Source: Desulfallas thermosapovorans DSM 6562 (lineage in GTDB: Bacteria > Bacillota > Desulfotomaculia > Desulfotomaculales > Desulfallaceae). Taken from it: 64,000 bases of DNA. The notes below the pieces were generated by a model. That model ran no database searches, was not told the DNA's origin, and saw only the letters and a program-made list of their open reading frames with translations. Location of the stretch: contig NZ_VNHM01000005.1 in assembly GCF_008124625.1 (NCBI RefSeq), forward strand, positions 1 to 64,000. Reading direction: 5' to 3'. The position numbers were made by a program, and so were the translations under genes. Positions 29,641 to 46,547 of the stretch are shown in pieces. Each line of letters starts with the position of its first letter. The stretch's first letter is position 1.

Positions 29641-30057
29641 CTATGCGGGGCTAAATTTAAAACCGTATCTAGTTACCCCTTCTTCTTCATATATTTTTCT
29701 AAATACAGCTCTAACCGGCATGCCAATGGTAATTCCCTCTTCGGGTGGATTAACCACCTGGGCTATTACCCGTGGGCCTTCTTCCAATTGGATAATGGCC
29801 ACAGGATAACTGCCCTTGCAGCGGGCCTCTGCCGCAAATTCAGGCGGGGCACCGCCACCGGCGATTATAGTATATGAATATATTGTGCCTTTGCCGCTAA
29901 GCTGGACATTTTCAAAGGTTGTTCCTTGGAGACAGTATTTGCAGACTGCTTTGGGAGGAAAATTAATCCTACCACATGATTGGCAGCGCTGCCCGATTAA
30001 CCTGTAGCGTTGAGGAACCGCCCTTTGGTACATGGGAATGGATATATGTGCGCCCAT
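29641..30057 (-). CDS. DUF35 OB-fold/zinc-ribbon acyl-CoA-binding protein
   Basis: A 138-residue protein with an N-terminal rubredoxin-like zinc ribbon (CQSCG and CKYC at about residues 25-42) and a C-terminal OB fold. In archaea a DUF35 protein bridges acetoacetyl-CoA thiolase and HMG-CoA synthase and channels CoA intermediates; in toluene degraders BbsA does a similar job for the thiolase BbsB. Here it directly follows an HMG-CoA-synthase-like gene and an SCP-x-type thiolase, so the three products likely form one complex. Last gene of the eight-gene operon. Confidence 0.88.
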   Translation of the reverse strand: MGAHISIPMYQRAVPQRYRLIGQRCQSCGRINFPPKAVCKYCLQGTTFENVQLSGKGTIYSYTIIAGGGAPPEFAAEARCKGSYPVAIIQLEEGPRVIAQVVNPPEEGITIGMPVRAVFRKIYEEEGVTRYGFKFSPA

Positions 30058-30066
30058 TTAATCACC

Positions 30067-31077
30067 TCAAATACTTCTTTTCAGTTTCAGGTATTGAACG
30101 TAGCTGATATATTTCTTATATTCCAGCGCTGCTTGCATGGGTTTGTTGGTTTGTGCCACCAAGGATTTTTCCAGTTTGAAACTAAGCGCTTGACTGCCTG
30201 AACCGGAACCATAGGAACAAACCAGTATATGATCACCGTTTGCGGCTACATCCAATACCCGGCATAAAGCCAGTAAAGGTGCACCGGCGCCGGTATCACC
30301 CAACTGGGCAAACACTTGTCCCCCTTTGGTTTGCTCTTCGGTGCAACCCATTTTTTTGGCCAGGGCGGCAGCAGTTTTAGCATCGCTTTGATGTAATATT
30401 ACGTGGTTATAATCAGCCAGTTTTCGTCCTGTTTTTTCCATTAAACCGCTCACCGCGGCCTTGACCGTTTCATTATAATCTTGGGTAGCATAAGCTTTTA
30501 CGCCAATATCCCGCATATCGGTCTCACCCGGTAAACGGTAGCGCAGTCCCATAGCTTCGGTAGAGTAACCGAATACCCCTTCATAGGCCAGGCCGGGTTC
30601 ATCTTTAGCCAGCACAAAGGCACATGCACCGGCACCAAACCCGTTTTCCAAATCCACATGGGCTGCGGAGGTTGGTGCATCTGACACCACCACCAGCGCA
30701 TATGGCTGATCGTTCTGATCCATAAGACCCAGTGCGGAAAGGATGGCCTGTGTGCCGGACATAGTGGAATTTGCATGCTGAGCAGATAAAACATTGTTAG
30801 ATAATCCCAACGCCTCCACCATTGTACCCGCCATCTCTTTTTCTTGATATGGGAAATTAGTGGATGCCAGCGTTAAAACACCTACCCGGGAAATATCCAG
30901 ACCGGCCAGCGCGTTGCGGGCTGCTTCCACAGCCATGGTGGTGACGTCTTCATCTATGTCCATGACTGTTTTTTCCTTCATGGCTGCAGAACAGCTGCCC
31001 AGGGCACTCAAAAATTCATCTCTTTTAATGCGCAAATACGGTAAGTAAACTCCGTAGGATATTATACTCTTACTCAT
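30067..31077 (-). CDS. HMG-CoA synthase-like thiolase-fold protein lacking the usual catalytic cysteine
   Basis: A 336-residue protein of the KAS III/HMG-CoA synthase branch, like the archaeal type in length and in ending. The catalytic cysteine of the family sits in an ACxxGT motif; the matching position here is HANSTMSGTQA, with Thr in place of Cys. The upstream acidic position also seems lost (ASTNFPYQEKE). A histidine remains in VILHQSDAKT. It may be a structural or decarboxylating partner rather than a condensing enzyme. Its ATG overlaps the thiolase stop by one base (TGATG), and it is 9 bp from the DUF35 gene. Confidence 0.75.
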   Translation of the reverse strand: MSKSIISYGVYLPYLRIKRDEFLSALGSCSAAMKEKTVMDIDEDVTTMAVEAARNALAGLDISRVGVLTLASTNFPYQEKEMAGTMVEALGLSNNVLSAQHANSTMSGTQAILSALGLMDQNDQPYALVVVSDAPTSAAHVDLENGFGAGACAFVLAKDEPGLAYEGVFGYSTEAMGLRYRLPGETDMRDIGVKAYATQDYNETVKAAVSGLMEKTGRKLADYNHVILHQSDAKTAAALAKKMGCTEEQTKGGQVFAQLGDTGAGAPLLALCRVLDVAANGDHILVCSYGSGSGSQALSFKLEKSLVAQTNKPMQAALEYKKYISYVQYLKLKRSI

Positions 31078-32255
31078 CAGGCATCCCCCCTCTGGTAGAT
31101 GAATACCGCGGCCGTTCCGCCGGAACCACCTACATTGTGGGATAAAGCGTACCTGGCATTTTTAATTTGCCTGCTGGGCTCTTTAGCTTCGTCACGAAGC
31201 TGCTTAAAAATCTCGCATGCCATGCCGCAGCCGGTAGCACCAATGGGGTGACCTTTGGCCTTCAGTCCACCGCTGGCGTTCACCGGCAGCTTGCCGTCAA
31301 TCTGTGTATACCCTTCTTCCAACAGGTACTGGGCTTTTCCTTCTTCGGCAAAACCTAAATCCCCGTAAGCTAATATTTCCGCAATGGTAAAACAATCGTG
31401 CACCTCTGCAAAATCTATATCTTTGGGGCCGATACCTGCTTGCTTGTAGGCCTCTGCTGCAGCCTTACGTGTAGCCAGCAGTCTGGTCATACTATCCCTG
31501 TCATGAATGGCCAGGTAATCGCTGGCGGCCCCGAAGCCCTTGAGATAAACAGGTTTATCAGTAAATTCCCGGGCTATCTTGGCGTTGCATAACAGTACCA
31601 CCGCAGCACCGTCGGTGGTGGGGCTGCAATCCCATACGTTGAATGGATAAGCTACGGGCACACCTTTCTTGGCTTGCTCTAAGGTAATTTCCTTGCGGAA
31701 TTGTGCCTTGGGGTTGGCTACTGCGTTACGGTGGTTTTTCACTGCCACCATTGACAGGTGCTCCCTTTTAAGACCGTACTCGTGCATATACCTGGCAGCC
31801 ATCAAGGCGTAAATCCCGGCAAATGTTGACCCGGCCAGGCGCTCAAATTCCGTATCCCCGGATACACCCAGCCAGTAACGGCCTTTGCTGGAAGAAACAT
31901 CTCTCATTTTTTCCACGCCCCCCGCAATGGCTATATCAACCTTGCCCGAGGCCACCGCACACGCAGCATTAAATAGAGCATACCCGCCGGATCCACAGGC
32001 ATTCTCAATTCTGACGGCGTTTACACGAGGCAAGCCAACGTGTCCCATGAGGAGTGGCGCCAGTTGCCCCAGTTGAAAACCGCTGCCTGAACTCAGACTG
32101 CCTATAAAAGCTGCGCCTATGCGCTGCTGGTCAATTCCCCGGTCCACACTTTGCAACATTTCCAGGTAAGCTTCAGCAAACAGTTCTTTAACACCCTTGT
32201 TGGGGAAATCACCATACCGGGTTTGCCCGGCGCCAATAATTGCTACACTTTCCAC
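31077..32255 (-). CDS. SCP-x/archaeal-type thiolase
   Basis: A 392-residue thiolase. The nucleophilic cysteine lies in NACGSGGYAL, with EVHDCFT and ASGGLKAKGHPIGATG carrying the two histidine regions, and HNVGGSGG at the C-terminus in place of the second cysteine motif of bacterial thiolases. This class pairs with DUF35 proteins and cleaves or forms 3-oxoacyl-CoA. Start GTG at 32255 with AAAGGTG upstream. It is translationally linked to the HMG-CoA-synthase-like gene. Confidence 0.85.
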   Translation of the reverse strand: MESVAIIGAGQTRYGDFPNKGVKELFAEAYLEMLQSVDRGIDQQRIGAAFIGSLSSGSGFQLGQLAPLLMGHVGLPRVNAVRIENACGSGGYALFNAACAVASGKVDIAIAGGVEKMRDVSSSKGRYWLGVSGDTEFERLAGSTFAGIYALMAARYMHEYGLKREHLSMVAVKNHRNAVANPKAQFRKEITLEQAKKGVPVAYPFNVWDCSPTTDGAAVVLLCNAKIAREFTDKPVYLKGFGAASDYLAIHDRDSMTRLLATRKAAAEAYKQAGIGPKDIDFAEVHDCFTIAEILAYGDLGFAEEGKAQYLLEEGYTQIDGKLPVNASGGLKAKGHPIGATGCGMACEIFKQLRDEAKEPSRQIKNARYALSHNVGGSGGTAAVFIYQRGDA

Positions 32256-32290: not shown

Positions 32291-33445
32291 TTATATTTCC
32301 ATTTCTTTGAGCAGTCTGCCGGCTATAACCATGCGCTGGATTTCATTGGTACCTTCGTAGATACGGGTAAGCCTGGCATCCCGGTAAAAACGTTCCACTG
32401 GGAATTCTTTCATGTAGCCCATGCCGCCGTGTATTTGAACTGCTTTGTCCACTACCCTTCCCAAAGCTTCCGAGGCAAACAATTTTACCATGGGGCCTTC
32501 TTTGAATACCGGCATATTCTGGTCCACCATCCAGGCTACCTTGTAGGTCAGCGCACGGGCAGCTTCGGTATCAGTGGCCATTTCCGCCAGCATCCACTGG
32601 ATAGCCTGGAAACTGGCAATAGGTTTGCCGAACTGCATCCTTTGCTGCGCATACTTAGCTGATAATTCAATTAGTTTGTCACAAGCCCCCACGCAGCGGG
32701 CACCCAGTGCCACCCGGCCTTTGCTTAAAATCCTCAGCGCACTTGAATAACCTTTGCCTATTGTTCCCAACACATTCTCTTTGGGTACTTTGCAGTCTTC
32801 AAAAATTACTTCCGAAGTATGTGAACCTCGGAGGCCCATTTTTCTCTCAATGGTGCCGATGGAAAAACCAGGTGCATCCCTATCTACAATAAAAGCCGTG
32901 TAGCCGCCCCGGGCTCCCTTTTCCTTGTCTGTTACGGCAATTACAGTAAATACCTGGGCTTCAGGAGCATTGGTTATAAAGTGTTTCATACCGTTCAGTA
33001 TCCATTTGTCACCTTTTAATACAGCGGTGGTTTTCATATTGGACGCGTCCGACCCGGCGTCAGGCTCGGTGAGGCAAAAGGCTCCTATTTTATCACCGCT
33101 GGCCAAATCCGGCAGGTATTTTTTCTTCAATTCTTCACTGGCCAGTTCCACAATACCGGTGGTGCCAATGCCTGTGTGGGCTCCGATAAGGGTGGTGAAA
33201 CTCATATTGGCCCGGCCCAACTCTTCCAGCAGCAGGCATTTATCCAGCATGGAAAGCCCAAGCCCGCCGTATTCTTCCGGTATACTCATTCCAAACAGCC
33301 CCATCTCTTTGGCCTGGTCGATCAGGTGTTGGGGAATACGATCTTCCTCCTCAATTTGCTGGGCACAGGGCTCAACTTCATTATCCACAAATTCGCGGAT
33401 CGTGCGTTTCATATCTCTTATTTCATCAGACAGGCTAAAATCCAC
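32291..33445 (-). CDS. short-chain acyl-CoA dehydrogenase
   Basis: A 384-residue FAD enzyme that oxidises acyl-CoA to trans-2-enoyl-CoA, passing electrons to electron-transferring flavoprotein. Signatures: GAFCLTEPDAGSD, the WILNGMKHFITNA FAD-binding segment, and the catalytic glutamate in TRIYEGTNEIQ near the C-terminus, as in butyryl/short-chain dehydrogenases. Start GTG at 33445 with GAGGTGGC upstream. Fifth gene in an operon; no ETF genes are in the window. Confidence 0.92.
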   Translation of the reverse strand: MDFSLSDEIRDMKRTIREFVDNEVEPCAQQIEEEDRIPQHLIDQAKEMGLFGMSIPEEYGGLGLSMLDKCLLLEELGRANMSFTTLIGAHTGIGTTGIVELASEELKKKYLPDLASGDKIGAFCLTEPDAGSDASNMKTTAVLKGDKWILNGMKHFITNAPEAQVFTVIAVTDKEKGARGGYTAFIVDRDAPGFSIGTIERKMGLRGSHTSEVIFEDCKVPKENVLGTIGKGYSSALRILSKGRVALGARCVGACDKLIELSAKYAQQRMQFGKPIASFQAIQWMLAEMATDTEAARALTYKVAWMVDQNMPVFKEGPMVKLFASEALGRVVDKAVQIHGGMGYMKEFPVERFYRDARLTRIYEGTNEIQRMVIAGRLLKEMEI

Positions 33446-33484: not shown

Positions 33485-34264
33485 TTATCTTCCTTTGAAT
33501 TCGGGCTTGCGTTTTTCTAAGAATGCTGAAGTTCCCTCAATACGATCCTCGGTAGAAAAGGCGATGGTCTGGGCAAACTTTTCAAACAACATACCCGAAT
33601 GTATATCGGTGTTAGCACCTACGTTAATGGCTACTTTAGCCAGGCTGACTGCCATCGGCCCTTTGGCGATAATTTTTTGGGCCATTTCCTTGGCTACCGG
33701 CATTAAATCTTCGGGTTGCTCCACCACTTTGTTCACCAGACCGATTTCCTTGGCCTCCTGGGCGCTAATGATGTCACCGGTAAAAATTAATTCTTTGGCC
33801 TTGCCCATACCCACAATTCTTTGCAGGCGCTGGGTGCCGCCGGCTCCCGGGATAATGCCCAGATTAACCTCGGGCTGACCCAACTTGGAGCGACTGGTGG
33901 CAATTCTGATATCACAGGCCAGAGCCAGTTCGCACCCGCCCCCCAGAGCAAAACCGTCAATGGCGGCTATCACCGGCTTATCAAGACTTTCCACATCAAG
34001 TAAAGTCTCCTGGGCTTCGCTGGTTAAAACCTCCAATGTGTCGCGCTCTTTTAATGTGCGTATATCCGCTCCGGACGCAAATGCTTTACCTCCGGCACCG
34101 GTAATAATAATTACCCGCACGTCTTTATCAAAACGGCATTGTCGCGCGGCCTGGCGGATTTCCGCCCAGGTTTTGGGGTCAAGGGCATTGCGCACCTCCG
34201 GGCGGTTCAATGTCACTATGGCAATATGGCCGTCTTTCTCAACCAACAGGTTTTGATATTCCAT
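33485..34264 (-). CDS. enoyl-CoA hydratase (crotonase)
   Basis: A 259-residue hydratase that adds water to 2-enoyl-CoA to give 3-hydroxyacyl-CoA. Oxyanion-hole segments FASGADIRTL and DGFALGGGCELALACD are intact, and both catalytic glutamates are present (GGCELAL and GQPEVNLGIIPGAGG). It follows the thiolase gene by 15 bp in the operon. Confidence 0.93.
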   Translation of the reverse strand: MEYQNLLVEKDGHIAIVTLNRPEVRNALDPKTWAEIRQAARQCRFDKDVRVIIITGAGGKAFASGADIRTLKERDTLEVLTSEAQETLLDVESLDKPVIAAIDGFALGGGCELALACDIRIATSRSKLGQPEVNLGIIPGAGGTQRLQRIVGMGKAKELIFTGDIISAQEAKEIGLVNKVVEQPEDLMPVAKEMAQKIIAKGPMAVSLAKVAINVGANTDIHSGMLFEKFAQTIAFSTEDRIEGTSAFLEKRKPEFKGR

Positions 34265-34279
34265 ATATTCCCTTCCTTT

Positions 34280-35473
34280 CTAACCAACCCATTCCCAGAT
34301 GGCTGCGGCACCCTGGCCGTGTCCGACGCACATGCTTTCCACGGCATACTTGGCGTTATAATAGGGCATTTCATGCATTATGGTGGTGGCTATACGGGCA
34401 CCGGTACATCCCAGGGGGTGACCCAGTGCAATGCCGCTTCCCCTTGGGTTAAGCAGCGGGTGGTTTCTGATACCCAGCTTTTCCACACAATATACTGCTT
34501 GAGAGGCAAAAGCTTCATTTATTTCCCACAGGTCAATTTGATCTATGGTCATACCGGCCTGCTTCAGTACCTTGGGAATGGCCACCGCCGGGCCTATGCC
34601 CATGATTTGCGGGTCAACTCCCACAACCGTATAGTTGACCAGTTTCATTTTCGGTTTTAAGCCCAGCTCTTTTATTTTTTCTTTGCTGGCCACCAGTACC
34701 GCAGCCGCGGCATCGTTGGTTTGGCTGGAGTTACCGGCGGTTACGGTAGCCTTTTCATCCTGTAAAAATACGGGCTTTAGCTTCGCTAAAGTTTCCAGGT
34801 TGGTATCCGGTCTGATACCCTGATCCCGGTCAACCACCATTTTTTGGGTACCTCCGTCATCAGTAGGCACATCGGCTTCTATGGGCAAAATTTCATCTTT
34901 AAATAATCCCTCTACAGTAGCTTTATGGGCTTTGGCGTGACTTTCCACGGCAAACTGGTCTTGTTTTTCTCTGCTGATATTGAACTTGCGAGCCACCATC
35001 TCAGCGGTATAGCCCATGGAACTCATATTAGGGTCTGTAAATTCACCCAGGCGGGGGTTGGGATCAGCACCCGTGCCCATGGGAACATGGGTCATGTGCT
35101 GCACACCACCGGCAATAATCAAATCAGCCCATCCCATGGCGATGTTGGAAACTGCAAAGGCTATAGACTGTAATCCTGAAGCACAAAAACGGTCTATTGT
35201 GCAGCCCGGCACACTATAGGGCATACCGGCCATGATGGTTGCGTAACGACCTATATTAGCGCCCATATCCTTCATGAGAGCAGTACCACCGAAAAAAACA
35301 TCATCCACTTGCTCTCTTTTTTTACCTGTTATCCCCGCCCGTTCCAGCACGGCATTAATAACTTTGGCCGCTAAGTCATCGGCCCTTATATTGAAAAACC
35401 ATGATTTTTTGCCCGCCTTAGCTATAGCTGTGCGCACTCCTTCAACAATATAAACCTCTCTCACTGCATTCAT
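34280..35473 (-). CDS. acetyl-CoA C-acyltransferase (thiolase)
   Basis: A 397-residue classical thiolase that cleaves 3-oxoacyl-CoA with CoA. Catalytic residues are visible: Cys in DRFCASGLQS, His in IALGHPLGCTG, and the second Cys in SMCVGHGQGAA, along with EINEAFASQ. It complements the atypical thiolase at 31077 in the same operon. Start ATG at 35473. Confidence 0.93.
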   Translation of the reverse strand: MNAVREVYIVEGVRTAIAKAGKKSWFFNIRADDLAAKVINAVLERAGITGKKREQVDDVFFGGTALMKDMGANIGRYATIMAGMPYSVPGCTIDRFCASGLQSIAFAVSNIAMGWADLIIAGGVQHMTHVPMGTGADPNPRLGEFTDPNMSSMGYTAEMVARKFNISREKQDQFAVESHAKAHKATVEGLFKDEILPIEADVPTDDGGTQKMVVDRDQGIRPDTNLETLAKLKPVFLQDEKATVTAGNSSQTNDAAAAVLVASKEKIKELGLKPKMKLVNYTVVGVDPQIMGIGPAVAIPKVLKQAGMTIDQIDLWEINEAFASQAVYCVEKLGIRNHPLLNPRGSGIALGHPLGCTGARIATTIMHEMPYYNAKYAVESMCVGHGQGAAAIWEWVG

Positions 35474-35529: not shown

Positions 35530-36399
35530 TTATTTGCAATACTCGTAAAATCCCTTTCCAGTTTTGCGGCCCCACTCTTTCTTGACAAACTTCTCCACTA
35601 TAATCGGAGATGGTTTATATTTGGGATCACCGGTTTCTTGATAACGCTCCATACTGACATAATAAGATAAATCTATGCCGGTGAGGTCAAGAAGTCTGAA
35701 GGGTCCCATCGGGTGACCAAGGGCATTTACCACTGCGGTATCAATGTCCTCGGGACTGGCCACTCCCATGTCGTGAATATACAGAGCTTCGGTTCTGATA
35801 GCCTGAAGAATCCGGTTGACCAAAAAGCCGTAAATTTCTTTATGCAGCAGAACAGGAATTTTACCCATCTTCTTACATACACCCATGACGATTTCCACTG
35901 TATCGTCGGAGACATGTGCCCCCTTGACCACTTCCACAAGTTTCATAACCAGAGCCGGATTGAAAAAGTGCATATTGCAAACTTTATCAGGACGGCCGGT
36001 GGCATCACAAATTTTGGAACTGACGATGTAAGAGCTGTTGGTAGCTAAAATAGTATGGGCGGGGCAAATTCTATCCAGGTCGGCAAATATTTGGCGTTTT
36101 ATCGCCAATTTTTCAATGGCAGCCTCGATAACCAGATCCGCATCCTTGGCTGCTTCGGTTAAATCGGTGGTAAAGGATATTCTTGCCCTGGCTGCTTTAG
36201 CCGCATCTTCAGTAAGCTTGCCCTTGGCTACTCGCTCCGGGAGGTAAGTATCAGCAAAGTTTTCCGCCTTTTGTAATATTTCTGCATTAATATCGGTACA
36301 TACCACTTTATATCCGGCCATAGCCGCGGAGAGGGATATTTGGTGTCCCATATTTCCTGCTCCGATTACGCAAATGTTCTTAACATCAAAACTTGCCAT
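35530..36399 (-). CDS. 3-hydroxyacyl-CoA dehydrogenase (3-hydroxybutyryl-CoA type)
   Basis: A 289-residue NAD-dependent enzyme that oxidises 3-hydroxyacyl-CoA. N-terminal Rossmann motif GAGNMGHQISLSAAMAGY, catalytic His-Glu region MHFFNPALVMKLVEVV, and the C-terminal helical domain with GHPMGPFRLLDLTGID. It is closely similar along its length to the second copy at 41707, so the two are recent-looking paralogues. Second gene in the operon. Confidence 0.93.
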   Translation of the reverse strand: MASFDVKNICVIGAGNMGHQISLSAAMAGYKVVCTDINAEILQKAENFADTYLPERVAKGKLTEDAAKAARARISFTTDLTEAAKDADLVIEAAIEKLAIKRQIFADLDRICPAHTILATNSSYIVSSKICDATGRPDKVCNMHFFNPALVMKLVEVVKGAHVSDDTVEIVMGVCKKMGKIPVLLHKEIYGFLVNRILQAIRTEALYIHDMGVASPEDIDTAVVNALGHPMGPFRLLDLTGIDLSYYVSMERYQETGDPKYKPSPIIVEKFVKKEWGRKTGKGFYEYCK

Positions 36400-36450: not shown

Positions 36451-38289
36451 TTAACTAATATACAGCGCCTCTTCAGGACATACAATGGGTGATTGGTCAG
36501 CATTCCTAATAAGTTGGGCTTGCATTACCACATTGGGCAGAATGTTATTGGCAAAATACCTGGCGGCAGCAATTTTCCCGGCATAATAATTATAATCGTG
36601 GTGTTCGGTGCCCAATTCAGTTATCTTGCGTGCTGCAACCAATGCTTGTTCCAAAATGGCTTCCCCGGAGAATAATTGGGCGCAGCAAGTAAGTACTTTA
36701 GGCGCATAAAGGGGTATCAATGCTCCCTTTTCATCTTTATTGGCATAGTAAGAAGCATATATCTCTTTGATTGTAGCTACACTTTGATATGCCTTTTCCA
36801 GATTGTTAAATTCAGTTGAAAAACCTTCGGTGCCTTTATGCTTTTCAATAAAATCTTTCCGGTCCTGCAACCAGTTCTCAAAGGGTTGGCCGTCCTGCAT
36901 GCGCATCTTTCTGCCCACCAGGTCCATGGCATGGATAAATGAGGTGCCTTCCCAGATGGAAAGTATCTTCACGTCCCGGGCGTACTGAGATACCGGGTAT
37001 TCTTCCGTATAGCCAACTCCACCGTAGACTTGAATAGCCTGCCCCACCATGGCCCAGGCGGTCTCGCTGGAGTATGTCTTGATCAGCGGGGTAAGGATTT
37101 CGGCTAATCCCTTGCACCTGGCGGCTTTTTCTTTATCGCTGCTGTGTTCGGCAATATCTAAATAGTAAAACCCTTTGAATATCATGGCCCGGATTGCCTC
37201 TACCTGGGCCTTCATTTCCAACAGCATTCTTTTTACATCTTCATGTTTGATAATCGGAACCCGGCCTATCTTGGGATTAGTAAAGGGGCGACCCTGAATC
37301 CGTTCGGTGGCATAACGCCCGGCAAAATAAAATGCAGCGGCCATTTGGGCTAAAGCGTTGTGTCCCGTACCGATACGTGATTCATTCATCATATTGAACA
37401 TCATAGCCAGACCTTTGGATACCCCATTGCTGTCCGGCGGGCTGCCCACCAGTATGCCCCGGCAATTATCATTCTCACCAAAGCTAAGCATGGTAGTGGC
37501 TGATGCTTTGAGTCCCATTTTATGCTCCACCGCTATGCAGGTAACATCATTGGGTTCCCCCAGGCTGCCGTCATCGTTAACCCAAATTTTGGGCACAATG
37601 TAAAGACCCAGGCCTTTGGAACCGGGTGCACCACCTTCGGGACGGGCCAGTACCATGTGAATAATATTATCGCTTAAATCAACCTCGCCGCCGGTGATAA
37701 ACATTTTGGTGCCTTTAATTTTATATATCCTGGGATCATCAGTGGGATAAGCCCTGGTAGTGGAATCACCTACATCAGAACCGGCGTTGGGTTCGGTTAG
37801 GCACATGGTACCACTCCACTCACCACTCAGCATTTTATCAATAAATAATTCCCGGTCCTTGTCTGTACCGAACCGGTGAATTAAGTTAGCCGCACCAGTG
37901 GTTAGTTTAATATAGGAAGCCAGGGCCGGAGAAGCGGCCATAATCATTTCATTATAAGCCCGGTACAAGGTTAAAGGCATAATGGTATCCGAAGCCAATG
38001 ATTCATTGGCAGTGCCCCAGCCATTTTCCTGCAAGAATTTATATGCTTCAACATAGGATGGGGGGACACTGACTTTACCGTTATCAAACTTGACGCCAAT
38101 TTCGTCTCCTTCCTTATTAATGGGAAAAACAACTTCTTTGGCGATTTTGTAGACTTCATTTAAAATAAAGTCCACATCGTCCGACTCATAGTTATCCTTA
38201 AACCTGTCCAGATTAAATACTTCTTCCATGTCCAGCCATTCATTTAAAATGAATTTCAGATCCCGGACATCGTATACAAACTCTGCCAT
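36451..38289 (-). CDS. large acyl-CoA dehydrogenase (DmdC-like, ~610 residues)
   Basis: A 612-residue FAD-dependent acyl-CoA dehydrogenase. Besides the core (MCLTEPNAGSDVGD, FITGGEVDL, and catalytic-region ILSIWEGTSFIHA) it has an extra N-terminal segment of ~80 residues and a C-terminal helical domain of ~130, the layout of DmdC and of long-chain dehydrogenases in many anaerobes. It is paralogous to the 607-residue protein at 43416. First gene of the operon, directly behind a sigma-54 promoter. The ATG has GGAGG 6 nt upstream. Confidence 0.9.
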   Translation of the reverse strand: MAEFVYDVRDLKFILNEWLDMEEVFNLDRFKDNYESDDVDFILNEVYKIAKEVVFPINKEGDEIGVKFDNGKVSVPPSYVEAYKFLQENGWGTANESLASDTIMPLTLYRAYNEMIMAASPALASYIKLTTGAANLIHRFGTDKDRELFIDKMLSGEWSGTMCLTEPNAGSDVGDSTTRAYPTDDPRIYKIKGTKMFITGGEVDLSDNIIHMVLARPEGGAPGSKGLGLYIVPKIWVNDDGSLGEPNDVTCIAVEHKMGLKASATTMLSFGENDNCRGILVGSPPDSNGVSKGLAMMFNMMNESRIGTGHNALAQMAAAFYFAGRYATERIQGRPFTNPKIGRVPIIKHEDVKRMLLEMKAQVEAIRAMIFKGFYYLDIAEHSSDKEKAARCKGLAEILTPLIKTYSSETAWAMVGQAIQVYGGVGYTEEYPVSQYARDVKILSIWEGTSFIHAMDLVGRKMRMQDGQPFENWLQDRKDFIEKHKGTEGFSTEFNNLEKAYQSVATIKEIYASYYANKDEKGALIPLYAPKVLTCCAQLFSGEAILEQALVAARKITELGTEHHDYNYYAGKIAAARYFANNILPNVVMQAQLIRNADQSPIVCPEEALYIS

Positions 38290-41633: not shown

Positions 41634-41706
41634 ATATTGTGAAAATTAGCAGTTCTATTCGAATATCTATAAATAAATGATCAATAGAGTAAAGGAGAGT
41701 GTAAAA

Positions 41707-42579
41707 ATGACAGTAGCAGGAATTAATAAAATTTGCGTGGTTGGCGCGGGAAACATGGGACACCAGATTGCACTTTGCTGTGCCGTAGCCGGTTATCAAG
41801 TAAAATGTACCGATATTAATGATGAAATTTTAAAAAAGGCTGAAAATTTTGCCGATACTTACCTGCCACAGCGGGTAGCCAAGGGTAAGATGACCGAGGA
41901 AGTTGCCAAGCAAGCCCGGGCCAATATTTCCTTTACCAATGATATTAAAGAAGCGGCAAAAGATGCTGATGTGGTGATAGAAGCCGTTATTGAAAATCTG
42001 GAGCTAAAATTAAAAATTTTTGCCCAACTGGATGAAATCTGCCCGCCGCACACCATCTTAGCCACCAACAGTTCATTTATTGTCAGTTCTAAAATTGCTC
42101 CGGCCACCAAGCGCCCGGATAAAGTTTGCAATATGCACTTCTTTAACCCTGCTATGGTTATGAAACTGGTGGAAGTGGTTAAAGGCCCCCATACATCGGA
42201 AGAAACAGCTCAGAAAATTTTTGATTTAGCTAAAGACATCGGTAAAATCCCTGTAATGTTGAAAAAAGAAATCTATGGATTCTTGGTCAACCGCATTGTG
42301 CAAGCTATCAACCGGGAAGCTATGTATCTCTATGATATGGGCATTGCCTCTTACCAGGATATTGATACTGCCGTGGTAAACGCGCTGGGACACCCCATGG
42401 GCCCGTTCCGCATGATGGACCTTACCGGTATCGACCTGGCCTACTATATTGGTATGGAGCGCTATCAAGAAAGCGGAGACCCGGCTGCCAAACCGTCCCC
42501 CATCATTGTTGAAAAATTTATCAAAAAAGAATGGGGACAAAAGACCGGTAAAGGGTTCTATGATTATACCAAGAAATAA
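41707..42579 (+). CDS. 3-hydroxyacyl-CoA dehydrogenase (second copy)
   Basis: A 290-residue NAD-dependent 3-hydroxyacyl-CoA dehydrogenase. GAGNMGHQIALCCAVAGY forms the dinucleotide fold; MHFFNPAMVMKLVEVV and GHPMGPFRMMDLTGID mark the catalytic and C-terminal regions. It is a paralogue of the protein at 35530. The ATG at 41707 has AGGAGA about 9 nt upstream; an ATG 30 bases earlier has no ribosome site. First gene of a HAD-hydratase-dehydrogenase-thiolase unit. Confidence 0.93.
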   Translation: MTVAGINKICVVGAGNMGHQIALCCAVAGYQVKCTDINDEILKKAENFADTYLPQRVAKGKMTEEVAKQARANISFTNDIKEAAKDADVVIEAVIENLELKLKIFAQLDEICPPHTILATNSSFIVSSKIAPATKRPDKVCNMHFFNPAMVMKLVEVVKGPHTSEETAQKIFDLAKDIGKIPVMLKKEIYGFLVNRIVQAINREAMYLYDMGIASYQDIDTAVVNALGHPMGPFRMMDLTGIDLAYYIGMERYQESGDPAAKPSPIIVEKFIKKEWGQKTGKGFYDYTKK

Positions 42580-42606
42580 AGTAGCCTGTCTTAAGGAGGA
42601 GTATAC

Positions 42607-43377
42607 GTGGAATACACCAAACTTAATGTGACCAGGGAAGATGGCTATGTTGTAGCTGCAATAAACAACCCCCCTGCCAACGCTTTGGGACAACCTGTGT
42701 TGCATGATATCAACGATTTACTGGATGCTTGTCTGAACGAAGCTGGTGTTAGAGCCATTGTTATTACCGGCACAGGCAAATTGTTCTCCGCCGGTGCTGA
42801 TATTAAAGAATTCAGTGGTATTCAGTCGGGTGACAGACCCAAGATTAGCGGGCATGACGTATTCCTCAAAATAGAGAATTATCCCAAGCCTGTTATTGCC
42901 GCTATGCAAGGAAGCGCCTTCGGCGGCGGTAACGAACTGGCCATGAGCTGCCACTTGAGAATTTTGGCTGATTCGGCCAAAGTAGGTTTGCCCGAAGTGA
43001 ACTTGGGTATTATTCCCGGTTGGGGTGGAACCCAGCGTTTACCAAGGCTGATTGGCAAAACCAGAGCATTGGAAGTAATGTTAACCGGCACCCCCTTGAC
43101 CGCCGAGCAGGCATTAAATTACGGGTTGGTGAACAAGGTAGTACCCGCTGAACAAGTACTGGATGAAGCTAAAAAGCTAGCTGCTAAATTGGCCAAAGGA
43201 GCACCCCTGGCCATTAGAGAAATATTAAAGGCAGTAACCCAGGGTTTAAATACCACCATCGAAGAGGGGATAAAAATAGAACAAGCCGGTTCCAAAGTGG
43301 TATTTGCCAGTGAAGATGCCAAAGAAGGCGGCAAGGCTTTCTTTGAAAAGAGACCGCCCAATTTTAAAGGTAAATAA
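42607..43377 (+). CDS. enoyl-CoA hydratase
   Basis: A 256-residue crotonase. Oxyanion-hole segments FSAGADIKEFS and GSAFGGGNELAMSC are present, with the two acid/base glutamates in GGNELAM and GLPEVNLGIIPGWGG. The N-terminus INNPPANALGQPVL has the NPPxNAL form common in hydratases acting on medium or long chains. Start GTG at 42607 with GGAGGAG upstream. It follows the dehydrogenase by 27 bp. Confidence 0.92.
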   Translation: MEYTKLNVTREDGYVVAAINNPPANALGQPVLHDINDLLDACLNEAGVRAIVITGTGKLFSAGADIKEFSGIQSGDRPKISGHDVFLKIENYPKPVIAAMQGSAFGGGNELAMSCHLRILADSAKVGLPEVNLGIIPGWGGTQRLPRLIGKTRALEVMLTGTPLTAEQALNYGLVNKVVPAEQVLDEAKKLAAKLAKGAPLAIREILKAVTQGLNTTIEEGIKIEQAGSKVVFASEDAKEGGKAFFEKRPPNFKGK

Positions 43378-43415
43378 ACCAATCCAATATTAACCTTAAT
43401 AAAGGAGAGCTATAT

Positions 43416-45239
43416 ATGTCCAGTAACTTTATTTATTCAAACCGCGAGCATAAATTTCTCTTGAAGGAATGGCTTGATACTAAAAAAATATTAAACTTGG
43501 AAGCCTTCAAGGAATTCTACGAGATGGATGACATCGATATGATATTGGACGAGGCCCTGAAGGTAGCCAAGGAAGTAGTTGCCCCTACCAATATTGATGG
43601 AGACAGAATTGGAGCCAAACTGGAAAACGGCAAAGTGACTACACCCCCTTCATACCATAAGTTGTACCAGTTCATGCAAGAAAACGGCTATGGCAATACC
43701 AGATACGACCCTGAGGAAGAAGGTAAATTACCACAAGTTCTGCAAACTGTATTGGATGAGTTCTTTAATGCGGCAAACCCGTCCTTCCATCCTTATATAG
43801 GTTTGGCCGGTGGATCTTCCAACTTGATTAATACCTTTGGCACAGAAGAAGACAAGAAACGGTTTTTACCCAAAATGTTTACCGGTGAGTGGACTGGTAC
43901 CATGTGCTTAACCGAGCCTTGCTGTGGTTCCGACGTGGGCGATATTACCACCAAGGCATATGCCACTGATGACCCCCGGGTATATAAAATTAAAGGTACC
44001 AAGTGTTTTATTACCGCTGGCGACCATGATCTCACCGAAAATATTATTCACTTGCTGCTGGCCAAATGTGAAGGTGCGGCACCCGGTACCAAAGGCATCT
44101 CCCTGTTTATTGTGCCCAAAATTTGGGTTAATGAAGACGGCAGCCTGGGAGAACCCAACGACGTTACCACTGTAGCACTGGAGCACAAAATGGGTATTAA
44201 AGGTTCCGCAACAGCTATGCTCAGTTTCGGTGATGAAGGTAATTGCCGTGGTATTTTGCTGGGTAACCCGCCGGATGAGAACGGTAAAGCTCAAGGAATG
44301 GCCCAAATGTTTATAATGATGAATGGCGCCAGACAAAGTACCGGTCTCACAGCCATGTCCATTGCACAAGCAGCTTATAACTATTCACTGCAGTATGCCA
44401 AAGAACGGATTCAAGGTAAAGCCATAAGCAACCCCAAGGCCGGGCGCACAAGAATTATCGATCATGAAGACGTTCGGAGAATGCTGTTATTCCAAAAATC
44501 AGTAACAGAAGCTTGCCGGGCCATGATTATGAAGACGGCTTATTATCTGGACCTTGAACGTAATGGAGACATCCCGGAAGATAAGGAAAAGGCTAAGAGA
44601 AGAATTGAAGTTAATACCCCGCTGGTTAAGGCTTATGCATCCGACATGGTATGGCAAACCACTGCCGAGGCCATTCAGATACACGGCGGTTACGGATTCA
44701 CCGAGGAATACCCGGTGGCACAGTGCGCCAGGGATTCAAAAATACTCTCCATTTGGGAAGGCACCAACTTTATCCAATCGCTGGACCTGGTCTTTAGAAA
44801 ATGGACCTTGGATAAAGGAAAGATATTTGCCGAGTGGTTTAATGATGTAGTGGAATCCATTGAAAACAATAAAGAGCTTAACGGATTTAACAGAGAATAT
44901 GAAATAATGAATAAAGCAGCGGGTGTTTATAGGGAAATCCAGGGCACCATTGCCTCCTATATGAACACAAATTTAAGGGCCATCCCTTTGTTTACCACCA
45001 GAATTCTCCACGCCACCTCCATGCTGTGGGGTGGGGCATTGCTACTTGAACAAGCTGCAATAGCTTCTAAGAGAATGGAGGAACTCGGGGCGGATCATTT
45101 TGATTACCCGTTCTACCAGGGCAAAGTACAAACGGCTAAGTTCTATATCAGAAATATCGTACCTGAAATATTTAAGATTGCTGAAATTATTAAAGACTGT
45201 GATACATCCGCCATCGACATCCTGGAAGAAGGTCTGTAG
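43416..45239 (+). CDS. large acyl-CoA dehydrogenase (second copy, ~607 residues)
   Basis: Paralogue of the 612-residue protein at 36451, with the same N- and C-terminal extensions. Signatures MCLTEPCCGSDVGD, GTKCFITAGDHDL and catalytic ILSIWEGTNFIQSLDL. The two adjacent cysteines replacing NA in the TEPNAGSD motif are unusual and lie by the flavin. Oxidises an acyl-CoA, probably of different chain length from its paralogue. Third gene of the operon; a terminator-like hairpin follows it. Confidence 0.9.
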   Translation: MSSNFIYSNREHKFLLKEWLDTKKILNLEAFKEFYEMDDIDMILDEALKVAKEVVAPTNIDGDRIGAKLENGKVTTPPSYHKLYQFMQENGYGNTRYDPEEEGKLPQVLQTVLDEFFNAANPSFHPYIGLAGGSSNLINTFGTEEDKKRFLPKMFTGEWTGTMCLTEPCCGSDVGDITTKAYATDDPRVYKIKGTKCFITAGDHDLTENIIHLLLAKCEGAAPGTKGISLFIVPKIWVNEDGSLGEPNDVTTVALEHKMGIKGSATAMLSFGDEGNCRGILLGNPPDENGKAQGMAQMFIMMNGARQSTGLTAMSIAQAAYNYSLQYAKERIQGKAISNPKAGRTRIIDHEDVRRMLLFQKSVTEACRAMIMKTAYYLDLERNGDIPEDKEKAKRRIEVNTPLVKAYASDMVWQTTAEAIQIHGGYGFTEEYPVAQCARDSKILSIWEGTNFIQSLDLVFRKWTLDKGKIFAEWFNDVVESIENNKELNGFNREYEIMNKAAGVYREIQGTIASYMNTNLRAIPLFTTRILHATSMLWGGALLLEQAAIASKRMEELGADHFDYPFYQGKVQTAKFYIRNIVPEIFKIAEIIKDCDTSAIDILEEGL

Positions 45240-45264
45240 AAACATAGCCGGGTTCTAAATTAAG

Positions 45265-45311
45265 GGGGAACTGTTTCTTGGAGACTTGGATTCAGTTCCC
45301 CAAATTTTATT
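45265..45311 (+). terminator. terminator-like hairpin inside the second operon
   Basis: GGGGAACTG (45265-45273) pairs with CAGTTCCCC (45293-45301), followed by AAATTTTATT. It may reduce readthrough into the thiolase gene, which has a TATAAT at about 45334 that could be its own sigma-A -10 element. Confidence 0.6.
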
Positions 45312-45368
45312 GGCTATTAAGAAATGAGAATATAATAGATAATTGTATTTATTATGGAGGGTCTTTTA

Positions 45369-46547
45369 ATGAGAGAATGTGTAATCATTGATGGATTAAG
45401 AACAGCAAACGCCAGAGCGCATAAGGATAAAGGCTGGTTCAGAAATAAAACACCGGATGAATTGCTCACTGCTGTTTATGATGCGTTATTTGCCAGAAAT
45501 CCCCAAGTGAAGCCGGAAGACGTGGAAGCAGTTTTTGTAGGTTCAGCTGCCCAGGTCGGCATGCAAAATGATATCGGCAGAACCTCCTGGCTGGCCGGCG
45601 GATTTCCTGAATCCGTACCAACGAACACTATTTGCCAACAATGCCCCTCCGGTATGGCGGCCATTGAACATGCCGCCAGGGCTATCATGTGCGGTGAAGG
45701 TGACATATATATTGCCGCCGGTGTTGAGGACATGTATCATGTACCAATGGGATATGCCATGGAATTCCCGCCTCGGATGCTGCAAAGGTACAAGCGTTCC
45801 GATATCCCCATGGGCGTTACGGCAGAAAAGGTAGCTGAACTTTGGAATATATCCAAGGAAGATATGATGCAAATGGCATACTACAGCCATAAAAACGCCG
45901 CCGCTGCCAGAGATTCCGGCAAATTCAGCCGCGAGATTGTTCCTGTAGAAGGTGAAAAGGAAGACGGAACCAAATTTATGGTGGACCGGGATCAGTGGAT
46001 AAGAGATAATATCTCCATTGAAGCCATGGCAGCTATGAAATCTCCCTTTAAAGAAAATGGCGTTATATCTGCAGCTTTATCATCGCCCCTGACAGCTGGC
46101 GCCTGCGCTCTTATTCTCATGGAACGTCAAAAGGCCGATGAACTGGGCCTGGACTACCATCTCAAATATAAAGCGGGGGCAATGGCTGGCTGTGACCCCA
46201 CTGTAATGGGTATTGGACCTATCTACGCTGTAAGAAAAATTTTTGAACGCACCGGTTTAACTGCTGATGATATAGATGTAGTGGAAATCAATGAAGCCTT
46301 TGCCAGCCAGTCTTTGGCTTGCCTCAGGGATTTGGGGCTTGAACAAAACGCACCCTTTAAAAAGACTAATCTTTGGGGTGGCGCACTGGCATTGGGACAC
46401 CCCCTGGGAGAGTCCGGAGCCAGGATCGTTATTACATTAAATAATATTATGAAGTATGAAAAACCCGATGCCAAGTATGGTTTGGCTACCCTGTGCGGTG
46501 GATTTGGCAATGCCAATGCTTCGCTCTGGGAAAGGGTCGAGAAATAG
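45369..46547 (+). CDS. acetyl-CoA C-acyltransferase (thiolase)
   Basis: A 392-residue degradative thiolase. Cys nucleophile in TICQQCPSGMAAIE, EINEAFASQSL, His in ALALGHPLGESG and second Cys in ATLCGGFGNANA. It cleaves 3-oxoacyl-CoA in beta-oxidation. The ATG at 45369 has GGAGG 8 nt upstream; an ATG 15 bases earlier overlaps that site. It completes the second four-step beta-oxidation set. Confidence 0.93.
   Translation: MRECVIIDGLRTANARAHKDKGWFRNKTPDELLTAVYDALFARNPQVKPEDVEAVFVGSAAQVGMQNDIGRTSWLAGGFPESVPTNTICQQCPSGMAAIEHAARAIMCGEGDIYIAAGVEDMYHVPMGYAMEFPPRMLQRYKRSDIPMGVTAEKVAELWNISKEDMMQMAYYSHKNAAAARDSGKFSREIVPVEGEKEDGTKFMVDRDQWIRDNISIEAMAAMKSPFKENGVISAALSSPLTAGACALILMERQKADELGLDYHLKYKAGAMAGCDPTVMGIGPIYAVRKIFERTGLTADDIDVVEINEAFASQSLACLRDLGLEQNAPFKKTNLWGGALALGHPLGESGARIVITLNNIMKYEKPDAKYGLATLCGGFGNANASLWERVEK

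Follow-up and report, generated by a model that had tools for sequence, protein, structure and literature searches.

Gene organization of the locus

The window analysed here is a 64,000-nucleotide stretch of the Desulfallas thermosapovorans DSM 6562 genome (contig NZ_VNHM01000005.1, positions 1 to 64,000). It contains a gene for a protein resembling HMG-CoA synthase (HMGS), which lies on the minus strand among genes of beta-oxidation type:

29641..30057, minus strand: DUF35 protein, 138 aa, CxxC..CxxC zinc ribbon and OB fold (sequence, family matches)
30067..31077, minus strand: HMGS-like protein, 336 aa, without the catalytic Cys (Thr105) and Glu (Thr73) (open reading frame, HMMER alignment, model)
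30763..30765, minus strand: codon ACT of Thr105, the nucleophile position (sequence and alignment to 6ESQ)
31077..32255, minus strand: SCP-x-type thiolase, 392 aa, with Cys87, HDCF (His286/Cys288) and GHPIGATG (His336) (sequence, family matches)
32291..33445, minus strand: acyl-CoA dehydrogenase, 384 aa, same operon
33485..34264, minus strand: enoyl-CoA hydratase, 259 aa, same operon
34280..35473, minus strand: classical acetyl-CoA C-acyltransferase (thiolase), 397 aa, same operon
35530..36399, minus strand: 3-hydroxyacyl-CoA dehydrogenase, 289 aa, same operon
36451..38289, minus strand: large acyl-CoA dehydrogenase, 612 aa
38565..40205, minus strand: fatty-acid-CoA-ligase-like open reading frame, 546 aa, upstream (named from sequence alone, no family-library scan)

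The SCP-x-type thiolase, HMGS-like and DUF35 genes (hereafter, the triad) are the last genes of a run that opens with the 612-aa acyl-CoA dehydrogenase. The thiolase stop codon overlaps the start of the HMGS-like gene by one base (TGATG), and the DUF35 gene begins 9 bases past the HMGS-like stop; because of this overlap and this short gap, the three proteins are probably translated together. The thiolase bears all the hallmarks of the SCP-x (SCP2) type, namely the nucleophile Cys87, HDCF and HPxGATG. A second beta-oxidation-type run, at 41677-46547 of the window on the plus strand, faces away from the first and is without the triad; its genes, named from sequence, encode a 3-hydroxyacyl-CoA dehydrogenase, an enoyl-CoA hydratase, a 607-aa acyl-CoA dehydrogenase and a thiolase.

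We searched 113 genomes of the order, 34 of which had matches with E values of 1e-10 or below, and obtained full-length orthologues (40-100% identity) from 17 genomes, D. thermosapovorans included; a scan of genome contigs for close relatives with the single protein found none. The HMGS-like gene had originally been described as wedged between an SCP-x thiolase and a DUF35 protein, and this order of thiolase, HMGS-like and DUF35 genes is kept at all 17 orthologous loci, as is the CxxC..CxxC zinc ribbon of DUF35. Genes for acyl-CoA dehydrogenase and 3-hydroxyacyl-CoA dehydrogenase are likewise found at every locus (16 other genomes and the window), and one for enoyl-CoA hydratase at 16 of the 17. 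A classical thiolase is encoded in 10 of the 17 operons; in the seven that are without it, the triad supplies the sole thiolase of the operon. Among these seven, locus L128 carries a further thiolase on the opposite strand at a distance of about 5 kb, and locus L125 has a second one of SCP-x type.

Loss of catalytic residues

In the HMGS-like open reading frame, the nucleophile motif reads ...HANSTMSGTQA.... The HMMER alignment places S-T-M-S-G-T on A-C-K-A-G-T of archaeal HMG-CoA synthase (PDB 6ESQ, chain I), so that Thr105 corresponds to Cys114 and Thr73 to Glu82. The available part of one report names Cys114 and Glu82 as key residues of the archaeal enzyme, and gives Gly115 and Cys83 at these two positions in PhlA (PMC6392133); PhlA, aligned alongside as a positive control, yielded the same Gly and Cys. 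The ACT codon of Thr105 is two base changes from a Cys codon, which excludes a one-base error. The original prediction held that STMSGT replaces the ACxxGT of condensing enzymes, with threonine for cysteine, and that the upstream acidic position also differs; the alignment and the codon distance confirm the former, and the change from Glu82 to Thr73 the latter.

The 17 orthologues share the loss and differ in the replacement. Position 105 is Thr in 11, Ala in 3 and Ile in 3, and never Cys; position 73 is Thr in 12, Ala in 4 and Ser in 1, and never Glu. Conservation of the threonine, which had been proposed as a check, was thus not observed, and we rejected Thr as a conserved substitute nucleophile because six of the 17 carry Ala or Ile. 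Position 229, that of the catalytic His, is His in 12 orthologues, including the window copy, Pro in 3 and Gln in 2. Furthermore, Asn270 and Tyr272 of the archaeal enzyme, both invariant in the 42 Cys-bearing rows, are replaced by Asp261 and Gly263 in all 17 orthologues, in which Cys29, Arg179, Arg189 and Asp190 are invariant along with these two replacements. The archaeal-invariant Trp27, which bears on whether the HMGS-side part of the CoA site is still used, is Leu in 13 of the 17 and Trp in 4.

These losses are not those of a decaying gene. Three orthologue pairs gave dN/dS values of 0.080, 0.098 and 0.098, rough ratios given a dS of 1.5-1.9 (a fourth pair, with saturated dS, was left out), and the reading frame is intact in all 17 orthologues; we therefore rejected a pseudogene. 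The gene is under constraint, though apparently not for condensing chemistry.

Predicted fold

An AlphaFold model (window protein with 16 orthologues; pLDDT 87.1, pTM 0.90) was compared with known structures. The Z scores were 42.2 for 6ESQ (rmsd 2.2 over 323 residues), 40.3 for PhlA and 37.1 for MucA (9VBO). A phmmer search of the PDB agreed, with the archaeal HMG-CoA synthase 6ESQ chain I at the top (E 1.9e-44), followed by the A subunits of the three-component acyltransferases 9SKH, PhlA (5M3K) and 9VBO. Superposition on the archaeal synthase thus upheld the earlier statement that the fold is kept; its companion, that one histidine is kept, stands for the window copy and fails in five of the 17 orthologues.

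The predicted model places Thr105 at the junction of strand 97-102 with helix 107-121, which we take to be where the nucleophile of the HMGS fold sits. Compared with the archaeal enzyme, the window protein has a loop between Mt residues 19 and 50 that is shortened by about six residues; PhlA and MucA keep the loop. A different cysteine in the active site, which would have spoken against the original prediction, was not obtained: Cys29, the sole invariant Cys, is placed outside the nucleophile elbow by the alignment and the predicted secondary structure, in the loop that connects helix 19-26 to strand 35-38. The Cys29 codon is at 30991-30993 of the window, and this residue, present in all 17 orthologues, occurs in none of the remaining 90 rows of the tree alignment, which include the 48 other Cys-less rows.

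The wider family and its partner thiolases

Scanning public genomes with a profile, we confirmed 525 relatives; the scan showed orthologues in Desulfotruncus alcoholivorax and Desulfofundulus australicus. We used the best 80 of these together with the order's own loci, so that all counts in this section describe a top-scoring sample and are no census. The resulting 111 rows were reduced to 106 by dropping five duplicates (L036-L039, L076). In this sample, Cys, Glu and His occur together in 41 of the 106 homologues, and neither Cys nor Glu occurs in the remaining 65, of which 14 keep the His; L104, which ends before the His column, was scored as having none. No homologue has just one of Cys and Glu. 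At the nucleophile position, the 65 Cys-less members of the sample carry Leu (26), Thr (20), Gln (4), Ala (3), Ile (3), Glu (3), Met (2), Pro (2) or Val (2).

For the tree, L086 and L104 (partial) were also dropped and the three catalytic columns were removed. The unrooted 107-row tree of this best-80-of-525 sample shows a single change of the Cys label (SH-aLRT 98). Closest to the bacterial clade on this tree are Cys-less proteins from Bathyarchaeota, Helarchaeota and a haloarchaeon, the last on a long branch. With FabH of D. thermosapovorans as the outgroup, and the long branches Phl_9vbo and L107 removed, the root falls inside the Cys-less rows with weak support (69-74), on a branch of length 4.9, and gives two changes. 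The single change on the unrooted tree is all that we claim; the Cys may have been lost once or gained once.

We then examined the neighbouring thiolase. Those no longer than 300 aa, or lying beyond 3 kb, were not counted, which left 97 loci of the top-scoring sample. The thiolase nucleophile is Cys at all 61 of those with a Cys-less HMGS-like gene, and the HDCF Cys is kept at 60 of them; the His336 column is lost at the locus end in five of the 61. Where the HMG-CoA synthase is intact (36 loci), on the other hand, the thiolase nucleophile is replaced by Asp, Glu, Ser or Gly in 13 cases, which requires at least five changes on the HMGS tree. At none of the 97 loci are both proteins dead. Because the HMGS label changes just once, this mirror-image pattern has no independent replicates and is only an observation. 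The loci with nucleophile-less thiolases (L049, L055, L056, L064, L069, L070, L074, L075, L080, L084, L088, L090 and L099) are all labelled as archaeal.

Proposed role and alternative explanations

What might such a protein do? We considered that it is a catalytically dead HMGS-fold subunit of a complex with the SCP-x-type thiolase and the DUF35 protein, and that this complex performs thiolysis in a pathway of beta-oxidation type; we give this reading a probability of roughly three in four. As suggested by motif conservation, Cys87 of the thiolase would form the acyl-enzyme, and Cys288 and His286 of HDCF, with His336, would take part in breaking a C-C bond of a 3-oxoacyl-CoA. A dimer of the HMGS-like protein would dock via DUF35, as in 6ESQ and PhlABC, would stabilise the assembly, and would lend part of the wall of a shared cavity or CoA site, performing no condensation itself; a scaffold role of this kind has been proposed for PhlA. 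We infer the physical association, its degradative direction, the class of its substrates and any channelling between its members. The seven operons with no classical thiolase speak for this reading, as do the surroundings of the triad in G065 and at a Bathyarchaeota locus (see below), where beta-keto acids would be made or activated. Family-wide loss of the nucleophile together with the Glu (65 of 65 Cys-less homologues in the top-scoring sample), the triad at 17 of 17 loci and a dN/dS of about 0.08-0.10 in three pairs fit a structural or channel-lining role; together with the precedent of PhlA, to which the original prediction made no reference, they support the structural or non-condensing role that had been suggested from the missing cysteine and the position of the gene.

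Two known complexes serve as models. The archaeal complex 6ESQ (thermolithotrophicus) has the same three components; all three window proteins find their best sequence match in it, and the HMGS-like protein also its best fold match. It differs in that its HMGCS subunit, with Cys114, Glu82 and the His, makes HMG-CoA for the mevalonate pathway, as far as the available text of PMC6392133 goes; the same text places the bound CoA at the interface of all three proteins. In PhlABC of Pseudomonas protegens (PDB 5M3K/5MG5), PhlA has the HMGS fold without the catalytic Cys and Glu (28% identity to the window protein) and stands alongside a thiolase-like C subunit with an active Cys and a DUF35 B subunit. 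According to the accessible portion of that report, the PhlABC dodecamer contains four cavities lined by all three subunits, and only PhlC residues act (PMC6392133). PhlABC is thus a known case of a thiolase/DUF35 complex with a dead HMGS-fold subunit. PhlA differs in having Gly115 and Cys83 where the window protein has two threonines, and in keeping the loop that is shortened in the window family. MucA of Streptococcus macacae (MucABC) is likewise a Cys-less HMGS-like subunit of a three-component acyltransferase, but is very divergent (20-21% identity), and MucABC is held to acetylate tetramic acids.

Several points qualify the proposed thiolytic role. With His229 kept, the window copy may in principle retain some residual chemistry. 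The PhlABC reaction is a CoA-independent acyl transfer, so that this analogy alone is no proof of thiolysis. Because 10 of the 17 operons also carry a classical thiolase, the triad may do something else there. Finally, the benzoylsuccinyl-CoA thiolase BbsAB is also a degradative thiolase with a DUF35 partner and is not known to require a third component, so that the need for an HMGS-like subunit is unexplained. To our knowledge, BbsAB has no HMGS-like subunit, which is consistent with 7PXP; the window proteins score far below the BbsA/BbsB equivalog cut-offs (41 against 250 and 196 against 750).

The old pocket might have acquired another activity, such as decarboxylation, hydrolysis or acyl transfer, perhaps through Cys29, Asp261 or His229. 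The six residues listed above as invariant in all 17 orthologues would accord with this, as the pocket region may be under selection. However, the 65 Cys-less homologues in the top-scoring sample share no common replacement residue, and Cys29, found in none of the 48 other Cys-less rows, is placed in a loop after helix 19-26; we therefore consider such an activity unlikely.

Might the complex instead be biosynthetic, or an acyltransferase like PhlABC and MucABC? The closest published Cys-less A subunits belong to complexes of this type, and thiolases are reversible. PhlABC, however, belongs to secondary metabolism, and the beta-oxidation type of the window operon argues against such a function: acyl-CoA and 3-hydroxyacyl-CoA dehydrogenases accompany the triad in all 17 operons, and we noticed neither a polyketide nor an NRPS gene among the open reading frames of at least 180 aa in the window. 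The partner thiolase, moreover, scores 305.9 bits against archaeal acetoacetyl-CoA thiolase and 101.8 bits against PhlC. A biosynthetic complex thus appears quite improbable.

A working HMG-CoA synthase, using Thr105 or another residue as the nucleophile and feeding a mevalonate/HMG-CoA pathway, has in its favour the full-length fold match to archaeal HMGCS, the presence of His229 and a score of 256.9 against the NCBIfam equivalog PRK04262 (cut-off 244), which all 17 orthologues match at E 1e-3 or better. Against it, position 105 is Ala or Ile in six orthologues, the His is gone from five, and the Glu, Asn270 and Tyr272 are gone from all 17. The window protein also misses the cut-off of TIGR00748 (177.6 against 353.35). 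The genome has Dxr above its cut-off and gave no match to HMG-CoA reductase (48 contigs, 99.99% complete as listed), which five control genomes matched; its only other HMGS-like protein clearly above the FabH range is a fused, Cys-less one on contig C20. We regard a working synthase as very improbable. The score above the PRK04262 cut-off means that pipelines may name the window protein HMG-CoA synthase, a name that is misleading.

Least credible is an aldolase complex with a retro-aldolase of the Ltp2/Sal type as the thiolase-like partner: SCP2-thiolase-like aldolases bound to DUF35 do exist and share the fold, but the steroid aldolases, in the available part of the report, use the Tyr of YDHF/YDCY, with Gly for the nucleophile Cys in Sal (PMC12329534), whereas the window thiolase is without that Tyr and, like those of all 17 orthologues, has Cys87 and His286-Asp-Cys288-Phe.

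Fused proteins and keto-acid clusters

Fused forms of the dead subunit were found elsewhere. In D. thermosapovorans itself, C20:37887-40472 holds a second Cys-less gene, here with HMGS and DUF35 fused in an open frame of 475 aa, that adjoins a 41%-identical thiolase. This and related proteins of Deltaproteobacteria and Dehalococcoidia resemble the triad in their Cys-less HMGS domain, their DUF35 and an adjoining thiolase with its Cys, and differ in forming one chain of about 470-500 aa, or of about 910 aa with SDR and SCP2 parts. Proteins of the latter kind (908-921 aa) occur at six loci among the best 80 of 525 relatives and the order's loci, all from genomes labelled Desulfobacteraceae, Desulfobacterales or Deltaproteobacteria; in all six, the Cys-less HMGS domain is followed by a similar SDR-SCP2 part, and DUF35, SDR and SCP2 were found by Pfam in both of the two proteins scanned. 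Each of the six (L098, L101, L109, L112, L113, L115) lies beside a thiolase, and at five of them an extra open reading frame resembling the SDR-SCP2 part is located directly upstream. The dehydrogenase part is presumably of the peroxisomal MFE-2 type, and the fusion of the dead subunit to such a dehydrogenase supports a role in beta-oxidation.

These proteins may represent a large, mostly mis-named class of bacterial and archaeal HMGS-fold pseudoenzymes, each serving as the non-catalytic half of a thiolase/DUF35 assembly that breaks down fatty acids and keto acids anaerobically, and extending to HMGS-DUF35-dehydrogenase-SCP2 fusions. The platform would keep two condensing folds although a single live one is enough (in the best 80 of 525 plus the order's loci, HMGS dead at 61, thiolase dead at 13, both at 0 of 97); we consider the chances of this generalization to be even. 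CC-licensed PMC papers, a partial literature, yielded no earlier report of degradative, widespread or fused variants, nor of beta-oxidation operons that encode a Cys-less HMGS-like subunit, a weak negative because the subscription literature lies mostly outside this set. The proposed role would extend the dead-subunit architecture of an antibiotic acyltransferase to beta-oxidation operons, and raises the question of what makes an inactive condensing-enzyme partner necessary for a thiolase, given that thiolases of the BbsAB type manage without it. In anaerobic bacteria, the label 'HMG-CoA synthase' can mark a protein without the residues for making HMG-CoA, and such labels would mislead the reconstruction of isoprenoid and acetyl-CoA metabolism.

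In Desulfotomaculum arcticum, acetone induces a DUF35 protein and an acetyl-CoA acetyltransferase, with no HMGS-like gene reported alongside in the available part of the source (PMC8084838), and we did not count this case as support. A search for acetone carboxylase in the D. thermosapovorans genome gave no match, but no control matched either, so that absence is not implied. In genome G065 (L130:419-19322), the triad is clustered with CoA-transferases, acetone/acetophenone-carboxylase-like HyuA, HyuB and gamma subunit, MmgE/PrpD and an IclR regulator, perhaps a ketone-degradation operon. In G063 it occurs with a beta-keto acid cleavage enzyme, and at a Bathyarchaeota locus it directly follows two genes resembling 3-oxoacid CoA-transferase subunits, which score below that model's cut-off. 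The neighbours of the triad in these three cases all make, activate or cleave beta-keto acids.
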